Counted from the stretch's first letter, positions 55,701 through 64,000 are shown. The stretch is 64,000 nucleotides of DNA from Rhodobacteraceae bacterium WD3A24 (GCA_002967695.1 PUHN01000011.1:1-64000), one strand, 5' to 3'. The notes: generated by a model from the sequence alone, not told the origin. Translations and numbers: made by a program.

Positions 55701-55876
55701 TCCTCAAATCCTTTCATTGACCGACCGTTGCATCGTCGCTCGCCCGCGGCCGCGATGCCAGCGGCGCTCGCGGGATGGTGATGGCACCTCACGCGAGAGA
55801 GAGCGGTCGTGACCCCAGCCCCCGGAAGGATCGCGTTAGGTTGCCTCGGGTAGAACGCAAACGAGGGAGATTCCCC

Positions 55877-56425
55877 ATGAAACACTTTGTCGCAAGTCTT
55901 GCTGCCGCCGCGCTGGCCGTAGGCGCCGGTTCCGCCGTCGCACAGAACGAGATGCCCTTCGGCAGCGAGCATGATGTCGAATACGCCGAGCTTCTGTGGG
56001 ATGCCATGGAATCGCTCAACATCGCCGGCGAGGATCGCGTCACCGGCTTGCCGTATGAAGGCACCCAGCCGCACGGCATGATGCTGGAGACCTTCTACAC
56101 CGAGGCGACGGTCGACGGGCATACCGGCGACCTGATCGTCAAGAACAACTACGGCCCGGAGGGCGTGACGGTCGACGACGTGCTGTCGAACCCCGACAAC
56201 CATCTCGGTGCCGTCACGGTGATGTTCCGCCGCGAAGAAGGCTATGACAGCGAGAACCAGGACTGGTTCTGGGTCCGCTATGCGGCCGACGGGTCGATCG
56301 CGAACAATCCCGACGGCGTGCCGATGGCCGGGCGCGTGGCCGCCGGAATGGACACCGGATGCATCGCCTGCCACCAGGGCGCGGCCGGCGATCTGGTCTT
56401 TACCTCGGATCATCTGGCCGAGTGA
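55877..56425 (+). CDS. Cytochrome P460-like c-type cytochrome
   Basis: A 182-residue periplasmic protein. The signal peptide ends VAQ (about 22). A single haem c motif CIACH lies close to the C-terminus (C162, C165, H166), after a long beta-rich domain with FRREEGYDSENQDWFWVRY and NPDGVPMAGR, matching the cytochrome P460/c'-beta fold. Relatives oxidise hydroxylamine or bind NO, but a cross-linking lysine cannot be assigned by eye. It stands alone; no other nitrogen-cycle gene is close. ACGAGGGAGA is ahead of the ATG at 55877. Confidence 0.8.
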   Translation: MKHFVASLAAAALAVGAGSAVAQNEMPFGSEHDVEYAELLWDAMESLNIAGEDRVTGLPYEGTQPHGMMLETFYTEATVDGHTGDLIVKNNYGPEGVTVDDVLSNPDNHLGAVTVMFRREEGYDSENQDWFWVRYAADGSIANNPDGVPMAGRVAAGMDTGCIACHQGAAGDLVFTSDHLAE

Positions 56426-60377: not shown

Positions 60378-62486
60378 ATGACCAGAAAACGCAACAAGGA
60401 TCAGGTAACCGGCAGCGAGAGCGATCCGGTCGATCCTGAGGAGAAGGGCCTGAGCCGGCGCGACTTCGTCAAGGGCGGCGCTGCCGTCGGCGCAGGCGCG
60501 GCGGTGATTTCCGAGCCCGGCCGCGTCGAGGCGTCGGAGCACGGCGACGAGATGGAGTGGCACTACGAGGCCGATATCGTCGTCATCGGCGCGGGCTGCA
60601 CGGGCATTCCCGCGGCCATCCGCGCGCATGACCTGGGCGCGTCGGTGCTGGTGCTCGATCAGAACTTCGACGCCGGTGGCCGCATGGCACACAGCGGCTC
60701 CTGGGTCTCGCTCGGCGGCGGTGACGCCGTTCAGGTGCGCGACGCGAACGGCGAAACCGATGCCGAAGGTTTTATCAATGTCGATCCGCTCGTCTCGCCC
60801 GAGGCGCTCGACGACGATGTCGACCTGCTTTTCAAGGACGTGACGGACTGGTCGGTGCTCGATGAGCAGGGCTATGCCTATTACCGGTTCAACAACCCCG
60901 ACCAGCATCGCGGCTGGGCCGAGAACTGCCCGCCGACGCGCGAATTCCTGATGGACAACTACATCCGGTTCGCGCGCATCAACGGCACGCACTTCGGCGG
61001 CGGCGTCTCGCGCGCCCGCGCTGCGTCGTGCTTCCTTATGCTCGGTGAAGTCACCGACATCAAGAACGGGACGATCACGCCCGAGGATGCCGGGGTGGCC
61101 GACCCGGAGCGCTCCAGCGCCTTCTGCCCGCGCCAGCTTTCGATCTCTGCGGACCGCACCAACGTCAATGCCGTGCATGGCGGCGGGGCGATGGCCCGGT
61201 GCCTGGAGTTCTCGGCGCGCGAGAAGGGTGTGCGGTTCATGTTCAATCGTCACATGGACGAGCTCATCCGCGACCATAACGGCCAGATCATCGGGGTGCG
61301 CGCCAGCTACACGCCGCGCCATGATCCCGACACCGGCGAGCAGCTCACCAGCTACTGGTCGGCGGGCAACATCGACGAGACGCGCGAGACGATCAATGTG
61401 CGCGCCCGTCGGGCCGTGGTCGTCGGCGCGGGCGGCCATGCGGGCAACCCGGCTTTCCGCAGCCAGTTCTATCCGCGGATGAACGAGCCGTGGTATCCGA
61501 CGAGCGGCTATGCGCTCCTCGGTTACGGGCGCGGGCAGGATGCCAGCGGCATCATCGCCGGCATCAATGTCGGCGCGAGCCTGGACGGCCTGCATCAGAA
61601 CTTCGGCCGCCGGACCTACCACATCCAGACCCGCATCGGGACGCGCGACGCCTATACGGACATGTATCCGGGGCATCCGACCTTCCCGTTCCGCAAGTCG
61701 GCGGGCTTCGACATCGGTCAGTCCGGCTTCGAGCACCTGATCGCGGTCAACCAGGTCGGCAAGCGTTTCTTCAACGAGATGCGCCTGGCTGACGAGCCGA
61801 TCGAGCCGCGCTGGCCCGGCGGGCAGCCGCACGGTGTGCCGAACGAGTGGGACAACCACACGCCCTATGACTGGCGCAACTGCCGCCGGGAGTGGGTGCG
61901 CGAGATGTACCACTTCTCGCACGGCGTCGATGCGGCGGTGCAGATCAACGAAGGCTCCATCGGCCCCGAGTACTACTCCGGCCCGATCTGGGCGATCTTC
62001 GACCAGGCTGCCGTGGACCGGGGGCAGTTCGAACTCCGCGAGCCCTATTTCTCGAGCGAGAACGGCTGCTTCTTCCAGGCCGACACGATCGAGGAGCTGA
62101 TCGAGAAGATCTATGCCGGCAACGAGTATCAGCGGATGCGGCCGAACTACCTCGTCGACACGGTCAACCAGTGGAACAGCTATGTTGACCAGGGCGAGGA
62201 CCCGGACTTCGAGCGTGGTCAGAGCGATGCGCCGATGCACCGGATCGACCAGCCGCCCTACTATGCGGCCTCGATCATGGTCGTGTGGCACGACTCCTAT
62301 GGCGGCCTGCGCATCAACCGCAACTGCCAGGTGCTCGACATGCAGGGCAACCCGATTCCGGGCCTCTATGCCGGCGGCGAATCGAGCGGTGGCGGCCAGA
62401 TGCACGGGCTCGGCCGGGCCACGGTCCACGGCTACATCGCCGGGACGCACGCCGTGAATGGCGGCGTGGTGGGCGAATCGCGCTGA
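60378..62486 (+). CDS. Tat-exported FAD-dependent oxidoreductase (fumarate-reductase-flavoprotein family)
   Basis: A 702-residue periplasmic flavoprotein. A twin-arginine signal (LSRRDFVKGGAAVGAGAAVI, RR at 27-28) is followed by a Rossmann FAD site IVVIGAGCTGIPAAIRA (GxGxxG at 71-76) and the FAD_binding_2 C-terminal block GLYAGGESSGGGQMHGLGRA. In between, VVVGAGGHAGNPAFRSQFY and AGFDIGQSGFEHLIAVNQVG are less typical, so it is a divergent member: not fumarate reductase itself, more like a 3-ketosteroid- or urocanate-type dehydrogenase. The usual N-terminal multihaem domain is missing. A beta-domain protein and a cytochrome c are coded next, giving a plausible complex and electron acceptor. Substrate unknown. 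Confidence 0.87.
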   Translation: MTRKRNKDQVTGSESDPVDPEEKGLSRRDFVKGGAAVGAGAAVISEPGRVEASEHGDEMEWHYEADIVVIGAGCTGIPAAIRAHDLGASVLVLDQNFDAGGRMAHSGSWVSLGGGDAVQVRDANGETDAEGFINVDPLVSPEALDDDVDLLFKDVTDWSVLDEQGYAYYRFNNPDQHRGWAENCPPTREFLMDNYIRFARINGTHFGGGVSRARAASCFLMLGEVTDIKNGTITPEDAGVADPERSSAFCPRQLSISADRTNVNAVHGGGAMARCLEFSAREKGVRFMFNRHMDELIRDHNGQIIGVRASYTPRHDPDTGEQLTSYWSAGNIDETRETINVRARRAVVVGAGGHAGNPAFRSQFYPRMNEPWYPTSGYALLGYGRGQDASGIIAGINVGASLDGLHQNFGRRTYHIQTRIGTRDAYTDMYPGHPTFPFRKSAGFDIGQSGFEHLIAVNQVGKRFFNEMRLADEPIEPRWPGGQPHGVPNEWDNHTPYDWRNCRREWVREMYHFSHGVDAAVQINEGSIGPEYYSGPIWAIFDQAAVDRGQFELREPYFSSENGCFFQADTIEELIEKIYAGNEYQRMRPNYLVDTVNQWNSYVDQGEDPDFERGQSDAPMHRIDQPPYYAASIMVVWHDSYGGLRINRNCQVLDMQGNPIPGLYAGGESSGGGQMHGLGRATVHGYIAGTHAVNGGVVGESR

Positions 62487-62505
62487 CGCGGCCCATGTGA
62501 AACTG

Positions 62506-62553
62506 ACGGACGCCGCCCGGGTAAGCCTTCCGGGCTCCTGCGGCGGCGTCCGT
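62506..62553 (+). terminator. Hairpin after the Tat flavoprotein gene
   Basis: ACGGACGCCGCC and GGCGGCGTCCGT pair perfectly over 12 bases, with an inner CCCGG/CCGGG pair within the loop, 20 bases after the stop. It may end or attenuate transcription before the beta-domain gene, which would lower expression of that gene and the cytochrome. Confidence 0.6.
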
Positions 62554-62608
62554 TGCATGCTGTGATATTCGCAGTATTCTACAGCCTTTCAACAGGAGTG
62601 CTCGACAG

Positions 62609-63520
62609 ATGGAAATCACGCTCGGTTCCTGTGACGTCGTGGTTCTGCCGGAGGAGGTCGATGCCGGCGGCGAGACGACGCTCAATATCGAGGTGACCGG
62701 CCCGGAGGGCGAGGATTTGCGCGGCCTGCCGATCCGGATCACGGATCACGCCGGCGCATTGGTCGAAACGATCTCGATCGACAGGTTCGATGGCCAGGTC
62801 AACCGGGCCACCAATATCACCGTCCGCGTGCCCGACGCGCCGGGCAGTTACACATGGCAGGCGACGCCCGGCGAGGAAGGCGACGACTCCGCGCCCGTGG
62901 AGCCGGTGTCATTCACGGTTACCGCCAAGGCGCATGCGACGCGTCTGCTTGTTTGGGACGTGCCCACCGCGATCGAGGCGGGCCGCCGCTTCGGCGCCAA
63001 GGTCGGTGTCAAATGTTCCAGCGGTTGCGACATGACCGGCCGGGGCATCGAGATAGTCGATGCCGGGGGCGCCGTGCAGGCGTCCGACACCCTGAGCGGC
63101 GATCTCTGGCCCGGCAGCGACGGCCTCTACCGCGCCGAATTCGATCTGCCCGCCCCGGACAAGGCAGAACAGCAACAGTGGCAGGCCCGGGTAGTGCCCG
63201 CCGAGGGGCGGTATCACCACGAGGCCACGACGTCGGCCTTCAATGTGCGCACGGTGCCGCCTGCGGAATACACGGTGCGAATCGAGGCGGTGGACCGGGA
63301 AACCGAGGCGCCGCTGCCGAACATGAGTGTGGTCATGCACCCCTACCGGGCCATGACCGATGCCGAGGGCGTGGCCACGCTCGCCGTCGCGGGAGGCAGC
63401 TACACCGCCTTCGTGTCGGGGCGCGGCTACTACCCGGCGCGCCGGGAGATGGATGTCGAGGAAGACATCACGACGCGCGCGCCCCTGGATGCCGAGCCGC
63501 CGCCCTCCAAGGATTTGTGA
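62609..63520 (+). CDS. Three-part beta-domain (Ig-like / CarboxypepD_reg-like) protein
   Basis: A 303-residue protein without signal peptide, starting MEITLGSCDVVVLPEEVDAG. It reads as three beta-sandwich units: about 1-108 (to FTVTAK), 110-218 (RLLVWDVPTAIEAGRR, with a CSSGC pair) and 220-295, the last like a carboxypeptidase regulatory domain (YTVRIEAVDRETEAPLPN, DAEGVATLAVAGGSY, SGRGYYPARREMDVEED). Because the flavoprotein upstream is Tat-exported and the cytochrome downstream is periplasmic, it may be carried out with the folded flavoprotein as a subunit. Family not recognised. AACAGGAG precedes the ATG. Confidence 0.72.
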   Translation: MEITLGSCDVVVLPEEVDAGGETTLNIEVTGPEGEDLRGLPIRITDHAGALVETISIDRFDGQVNRATNITVRVPDAPGSYTWQATPGEEGDDSAPVEPVSFTVTAKAHATRLLVWDVPTAIEAGRRFGAKVGVKCSSGCDMTGRGIEIVDAGGAVQASDTLSGDLWPGSDGLYRAEFDLPAPDKAEQQQWQARVVPAEGRYHHEATTSAFNVRTVPPAEYTVRIEAVDRETEAPLPNMSVVMHPYRAMTDAEGVATLAVAGGSYTAFVSGRGYYPARREMDVEEDITTRAPLDAEPPPSKDL

Positions 63521-63567
63521 GCGCGCCGGTTCGCAACCGAGAAACTTCCGTCGAGTTGGAGAAGATG

Positions 63568-64000
63568 ATGAACAGGACAGGTTTCAGCGTCGCCGGTGCC
63601 GCCGGCGTGATTCTCGCCGTCACGGCCTTCGGGGCGCGTGCCCAGGATGACGGGGCGGCCTTCGATCAGGGCCGGACCATCTATGAGCAGAACTGCGCGC
63701 AGTGTCACCAACCCTCGGGCGAGGGCATTCCGCCCAGCTTCCCGGCGCTGGCGGGCAACGACAACCTCGAAGACCCGGCGCTGATCGTCAACAATGTGCG
63801 TAACGGCAGGCAGGCGATGCCGGCTTTCCCCGACCTCGGCGCGGAAGAGATCGCCGCCGTCGCAACCTATGTGCGCAGTGCCTGGTCGAACGATTACGGC
63901 GCGGTTTCCGCCGACGAGGTCTCGGAGATTCTCCAGACGCTCGACGGCGAGGGAGAAGACGGCGATCAGGCCGCGCAGACCACGATCTGGGATGGCGTCT
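63568..64000 (+). CDS. Class I cytochrome c, periplasmic (3' partial)
   Basis: The gene runs off the window. The signal peptide ends RAQ (about 26). The haem motif is C43-A-Q-C46-H47 (QNCAQCHQPSGEG), with the likely axial Met at M84 (RQAMPAFPDL) and the C-terminal helix IAAVATYVRSAW: a normal mono-haem class I cytochrome domain, followed by an acidic extension that continues beyond 64000. GGAG lies 6 bases ahead of the ATG at 63568 (a second ATG is one codon upstream). It is the obvious electron acceptor for the flavoprotein coded two genes before. Confidence 0.88.
   Translation, partial: MNRTGFSVAGAAGVILAVTAFGARAQDDGAAFDQGRTIYEQNCAQCHQPSGEGIPPSFPALAGNDNLEDPALIVNNVRNGRQAMPAFPDLGAEEIAAVATYVRSAWSNDYGAVSADEVSEILQTLDGEGEDGDQAAQTTIWDGV

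Follow-up and report, generated by a model that had tools for sequence, protein, structure and literature searches.

A probable periplasmic flavoenzyme cassette with a signal-less beta-sandwich partner in Rhodobacteraceae and distant phyla

Introduction

Three consecutive genes at the end of a 64,000-nucleotide stretch of DNA from Rhodobacteraceae bacterium WD3A24 (PUHN01000011.1:1-64000; hereafter the window) probably encode a periplasmic electron-transfer enzyme that has not been described previously. The genes code for a flavoprotein with a twin-arginine (Tat) signal, an all-beta protein (the beta-protein) without a signal peptide and a diheme cytochrome c. Their grouping is beyond chance, since all three are found side by side again in other phyla. 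We favour, at slightly better than an even chance for the reading as a whole, a Tat-exported heterodimer in which the beta-protein rides with the flavoprotein and electrons pass to the cytochrome c. The flavoprotein would fold and take up FAD in the cytoplasm, bind the beta-sandwich protein before export, and the pair would then cross the Tat pore on the twin-arginine signal of the flavoprotein (hitchhiking). In the periplasm, the beta-protein would stay on as a subunit of the flavoprotein with a structural or docking role. The flavoenzyme would oxidise a small molecule, and the electrons would move to the diheme cytochrome c, exported separately by Sec, and on to the respiratory chain.

Within PF00890, a large superfamily with many members that lack an assigned substrate, the cassette offers a defined, testable handle on a branch that is uncharacterised. 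The beta-protein is a candidate for a new type of Tat hitchhiker, with a signal-less beta-sandwich core that can be found in distant phyla. Because the cultivated Devosia nitrariae NBRC 112416 has two copies of the cassette, the proposal is directly testable.

Gene Content and Properties of the Products

All three genes lie on the plus strand (Table 1), with a gap of 122 bp between the flavoprotein and beta-protein genes and of 44 bp between the beta-protein and cytochrome genes, in agreement with the same-direction, closely spaced genes of the initial annotation. At other loci, the gap between the flavoprotein and beta-protein genes is mostly <100 bp. RNA folding of positions 62487-62608 gave -58.2 kcal/mol vs. 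a mean of -41.3 for shuffled sequences (z -4.3). The strong hairpin within this gap has no T-run after it and is missing from the terminator-like sites.

Table 1. Coordinates of the cassette and its features in the window.
Feature	Position	Strand	Basis or remark
Tat-exported FAD_binding_2 (PF00890) flavoprotein, 702 aa	60378..62486	+	ORF; Pfam; homologue identity
Tat signal peptide region, SRRDFVK, R27 R28 at 60456-60461	60378..60536	+	cleavage end approximate
Strong hairpin between flavoprotein and beta-protein genes	62505..62554	+	RNA fold
Signal-less beta-protein of 303 aa with three beta-sandwich domains	62609..63520	+	ORF; AlphaFold
Beta-protein domain 2, near-invariant Cys136-x3-Cys140; conserved core begins here	62930..63256 (approximate)	+	alignment
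Beta-protein domain 3, CarboxypepD_reg-like	63257..63496 (approximate)	+	PF13620
Diheme cytochrome c gene, 5' part	63565..64000	+	full 260 aa ends C13:64347

The RR signal and the FAD_binding_2 fold that had been assigned to the first product both scored above their Pfam cut-offs (PF00890, 104.5 bits, cut-off 20.4; TAT_signal PF10518, 26.0 bits, cut-off 22.7). The twin-arginine motif L-S-R-R-D-F-V-K occupies residues 25-32, and R27 and R28 are invariant across all nine aligned flavoprotein homologues. The flavoprotein shares 56-60% identity with the homologues of other cassettes and has no Pfam match to the GMC family. An AlphaFold model of the flavoprotein, made from a nine-row alignment, reached a pLDDT of 41 and was set aside.

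The AlphaFold model of the beta-protein (13 homologues; mean pLDDT 90.7) contains strands only, and three predicted domains can be read from it, the number given in the initial annotation. That annotation recognised no family in this protein, which is still the case for the protein as a whole but not for its C-terminal domain. Domain 3 alone passes CarboxypepD_reg PF13620 with 35.2 bits (cut-off 32.3), and the beta-protein of locus L028 scores 35.8 bits against the same family. Domains 2 and 3 form the conserved core, and the gammaproteobacterial and acidobacterial beta-proteins consist of this core only (about 210-225 aa). The Foldseek search that had been proposed for the middle protein returned only unspecific matches, to Ig-like, pilin and complement or macroglobulin folds (TM mostly 0.2-0.3 and at best 0.46), and no functional relative is claimed from such low values. 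Searching the PDB by sequence with the beta-protein gave only weak matches to transthyretin/CarboxypepD-like domains.

By inspection, the absence of a signal peptide holds for all 20 beta-proteins, none of which has a signal-like N-terminus, as would be expected of a Tat hitchhiker subunit. A signal was judged by the distance from start to fold; a hydrophobicity score could not tell Tat signals from beta-strands. In the short forms, the first strand lies about 10-20 residues past the start codon. Studies have established that signal-less subunits can leave the cytoplasm with a Tat-tagged partner (PMC10924467), and in FAD-glucose dehydrogenase it is the small subunit that bears the Tat signal and takes the flavoprotein along (PMC6719666). 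The signal-less beta-protein would fit export with a Tat passenger, and it would fit a cytoplasmic protein equally well. The main rival to co-export is a cytoplasmic maturation chaperone, a role which we consider rather unlikely and in which the beta-protein would hold the flavoprotein during folding, until it has received its FAD, and then stay behind. Dedicated chaperones are common among Tat redox enzymes, examples being TorD, DmsD and NapD, which serve molybdoenzymes. The lack of a signal peptide throughout the homologues and the constant position of the beta-gene directly after the flavoprotein gene would suit a chaperone, and the loss of the beta-gene in one acidobacterium (G967, see below) would do less harm if the product were an accessory factor. 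The cysteines of domain 2 speak for a different location. The motif Gx(K/A/T)C-x3-C is present in 19 of 20 homologues, and the lone exception (L026) is missing both cysteines. Being kept or lost as a pair, they behave like a disulfide, which favours a periplasmic site; together with the Ig/transthyretin-like beta-sandwich folds they point to an extracytoplasmic place for the beta-protein. In addition, we know of no Tat chaperone that is a beta-sandwich of this kind, which also counts against a chaperone.

The window ends within the cytochrome gene. Contig C13 extends to 77898, and reading past position 64000, as had been suggested, made the cytochrome c readable whole. The protein has a Sec-type signal and the haem motifs CAQCH and CAACH, and is a fusion of two class I domains. 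The earlier class I assignment was correct as to class, but the protein is not a single domain, and with two CxxCH motifs it is a diheme cytochrome. The cytochromes of homologous cassettes also have Sec-type signals.

Recurrence and Co-occurrence of the Cassette

Homologous cassettes were found in Rhodobacteraceae, Devosia, one gammaproteobacterium and Acidobacteriota. Among 298 genomes of the same family, a full-length beta-protein was present in four (G000, G016, G034, and G068), and a flavoprotein at E <1e-40 was present in exactly the same four. Scanning the GTDB species genomes turned up eleven loci, among them those of Devosia nitrariae, Phaeovulum, Gemmobacter, the gammaproteobacterium, and three Acidobacteria. 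Five of 297 Acidobacteriota genomes contained the full beta-core, each copy adjoining a flavoprotein gene. A search of plasmids gave no beta-protein and no close flavoprotein. Over 20 distinct beta-gene loci, the flavoprotein gene is immediately upstream at 18, which come from Alphaproteobacteria, the gammaproteobacterium and Acidobacteriota and include one (L022) where a contig end cuts the flavoprotein. The remaining two are a locus at a contig end (L032) and one with an 87-aa flavoprotein remnant (L024). The cytochrome is the next gene at 14 of the 20 loci, and none is adjacent at the other six. The view that the three genes form a unit was borne out by this recurrence. The initial annotation had named a beta-gene regularly found alone as evidence against such a unit; with respect to the flavoprotein this was not seen, the exceptions L032 and L024 being a contig end and a flavoprotein remnant, whereas the cytochrome is less constant.

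The flavoprotein tree contains a clade of about 700-aa proteins in which 14 of 15 members have the beta-gene and the phyla are intermixed, which indicates that the unit moves together. Distance matrices were correlated for flavoprotein and beta-protein (r 0.64), flavoprotein and cytochrome (r 0.70), and beta-protein and cytochrome (r 0.72). These correlations are as expected for joint inheritance or transfer, and would also arise if linked genes were simply transferred together. It is very improbable, in our estimate, that an ordinary PF00890 flavoprotein and cytochrome merely carry the beta-gene by linkage, with no role for it in the enzyme. Horizontal movement of the cassette, one loss of the beta-gene and many distant flavoproteins without it would agree with linkage, but adjacency has held at the 18 loci across phyla, even where flavoprotein identity has fallen to about 33%, and no other context of the beta-gene was seen over the genomes scanned.

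The loss concerns the acidobacterium G967, in which the flavoprotein at L084 is 88% identical to that of L066 and the cytochrome gene is 50 bp away, with the beta-gene absent at this locus and elsewhere in the genome. This looks like a recent loss. Since G967 keeps the flavoprotein and cytochrome without the beta-gene, the beta-protein is not strictly required. Among more distant flavoproteins (about 30-42% identity), the beta-gene is present at L056, L057, L068, and L069 and absent at L055, L058, and L085-L089, and no cytochrome gene is next door at any of these loci. Distant loci thus have the pair without an adjoining cytochrome, and the pair of flavoprotein and beta-protein is therefore more ancient or more widespread than the full set of three. 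The cytochrome, earlier called dedicated, deserves that name within one clade only.

Electron Carriers, Direction of the Reaction and Substrate

Further electron carriers are encoded in some cassettes. The second Devosia cassette adds a pseudoazurin (TIGR02375, 172.8 bits, cut-off 109.9), and cassettes of the Phaeovulum type encode two extra small cytochromes, for a total of three, together with a Tat multicopper oxidase, the oxidase being present in two loci and the pseudoazurin in one. We infer that oxidation of the substrate is favoured over reduction because of the class I cytochromes, the pseudoazurin and the Phaeovulum-type cytochromes with multicopper oxidase. With the opposite direction, the cytochrome c would donate electrons and the flavoprotein would be a terminal reductase of an organic acceptor, like the methacrylate reductase Mrd with Mcc, and this we regard as fairly improbable. 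In that system, too, a Tat flavoprotein is paired with a Sec cytochrome, both from one horizontally transferred operon (PMC4427408), a precedent in favour of a reductase. Profile matches also lend it support, the nearest solved structures being fumarate and urocanate reductases. The 3-ketosteroid dehydrogenases are likewise among the nearest profile matches. The flavoprotein is, however, below the cut-off of every NCBIfam family listed for it. It scored 139.6 bits against the flavocytochrome c family TIGR01813 (cut-off 285.45), which places it outside that subfamily and counts against a reductase, 103.9 bits against the 3-ketosteroid-delta-1-dehydrogenase family NF009478 (cut-off 789), a partial profile match, and 99.4 bits against NF005882 (cut-off 788). 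HMMER alignment to 1jrx and 2b7s showed that equivalents of Fcc3 His365 and His504 are present (H433 and H638), but the positions of Arg402 and Arg544 hold other residues, the alignment being weak around 402. In the Fcc3 fumarate reductase, Arg402 is the proton donor and Arg544 takes part in substrate binding, and their absence argues against a reductase. The same is true of the small class I cytochromes and the copper proteins, and the Devosia and Rhodobacteraceae hosts are mostly aerobic.

No substrate-indicating gene common to all neighbourhoods was found. Polyamine-type ABC transporter genes begin about 330 bp after the cytochrome gene, and such genes adjoin the G000 and G016 cassettes. 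A dimethylglycine-dehydrogenase-like gene adjoins the G967 locus, and lysine/arginine/ornithine-type ABC and aminotransferase genes adjoin L024. These neighbours hint at an amine substrate, but the other loci are without such genes, and the hint was discarded as evidence.

Comparison with Known Systems

The fumarate reductase Fcc3 and the urocanate reductase UrdA share the FAD_binding_2 fold and the His365/His504 equivalents with the flavoprotein of the cassette. They differ in having a fused haem or flavin domain and no beta-partner, and their catalytic Arg402 and Arg544 are missing here. The 3-ketosteroid dehydrogenases also have the PF00890 fold, and to our knowledge none of their families has a cytochrome or beta-partner. 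The Mrd/Mcc system of Geobacter sulfurreducens AM-1 likewise combines a Tat PF00890-type flavoprotein (RRDFLK in Mrd) with a Sec cytochrome c, and has likewise moved between phyla as a unit (PMC4427408). It differs in the absence of a beta-protein, in a tetraheme rather than a class I diheme cytochrome, and in the flavoprotein itself, which is a reductase of 526 aa compared with 702 aa here. Fumarate reductase-like clusters with a separate cytochrome have been reported as a broad class of 147 clusters in 108 genomes (PMC8238504); they also have separate flavoprotein and cytochrome genes, and the part of that source considered here notes no beta-partner.

The three-subunit FAD dehydrogenases, which include the FAD-glucose dehydrogenase of Burkholderia cepacia and the fructose, sorbitol and 2-ketogluconate dehydrogenases, are similar in consisting of a flavoprotein, a small partner and a cytochrome c, with one subunit needing the Tat signal of another (PMC6719666). 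They are different in that the flavoprotein is of the GMC fold with a 3Fe-4S cluster and the cytochrome is a triheme membrane protein (PMC6719666). The arrangement of the Tat signal is reversed, since it is on the small subunit in those enzymes and on the flavoprotein here.

A triad with a signal-less beta-sandwich partner was not found described in the literature searched. The initial statement that no described system has this exact composition stands to that extent, although the combination of a Tat PF00890 flavoprotein with a separate cytochrome is known (PMC4427408, PMC8238504); what is new is the beta-partner. Periplasmic flavin enzymes would then have a third architecture, in addition to the three-subunit dehydrogenases of the GMC type and the systems made of a flavoprotein and a cytochrome, a possibility that we put somewhat below an even chance. 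In it, a Tat-tagged PF00890 flavoprotein would carry across the Tat pore an untagged beta-sandwich subunit that stabilises or gates the enzyme and docks the cytochrome.

Variation among the cassettes

Some cassettes have missing or possibly decayed parts. The locus L084 (genome G967) has a flavoprotein and a cytochrome in the absence of the beta-gene, and offers a natural test of the role of the beta-protein. The genes convergent with it encode a fusion protein resembling dimethylglycine dehydrogenase and a further flavoprotein whose N-terminus carries a twin arginine. At L024, an 87-aa C-terminal remnant of the flavoprotein lies upstream of an intact beta-gene, reflecting either a decayed cassette or an assembly join. 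In G034 and G068, a LysR-type regulator divergent from the flavoprotein gene is a possible lead towards inducer and substrate.

Devosia nitrariae (G713:C18) carries a second, diverged cassette encoding flavoprotein, beta-protein, single-haem cytochrome and pseudoazurin in that order, immediately followed, as judged by eye, by methionine sulfoxide reductase-like genes. Phaeovulum-type cassettes have the order small cytochrome, flavoprotein, beta-gene, two small cytochromes and CueO-like Tat multicopper oxidase. In the window, outside its own cassette, an exported protein with a CxxCH-like motif matched Cytochrome_P460 below threshold (25.5 vs 27 bits).

Coordinates of features (local to each locus)
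Feature	Locus	Position
Cassette without beta-gene	L084	5627-8520
Flavoprotein remnant	L024	7647-7910
LysR-type regulator	L006	6170-7123
LysR-type regulator	L015	10587-11567
Devosia cassette	L054	5000-12000
Phaeovulum-type cassette	L025	4923-11455
Phaeovulum-type cassette	L023	588-7068
Exported protein	window	55874-56425
Hairpin	window	62505-62554

Intergenic hairpin

The flavoprotein/beta-protein gap of the window contains a highly stable hairpin (z -4.3, RNA fold against shuffled sequences). This hairpin lacks a T-run. In the Mrd/Mcc methacrylate redox operon of Geobacter sulfurreducens AM-1, a terminator-like element is likewise reported to separate the two genes (PMC4427408).
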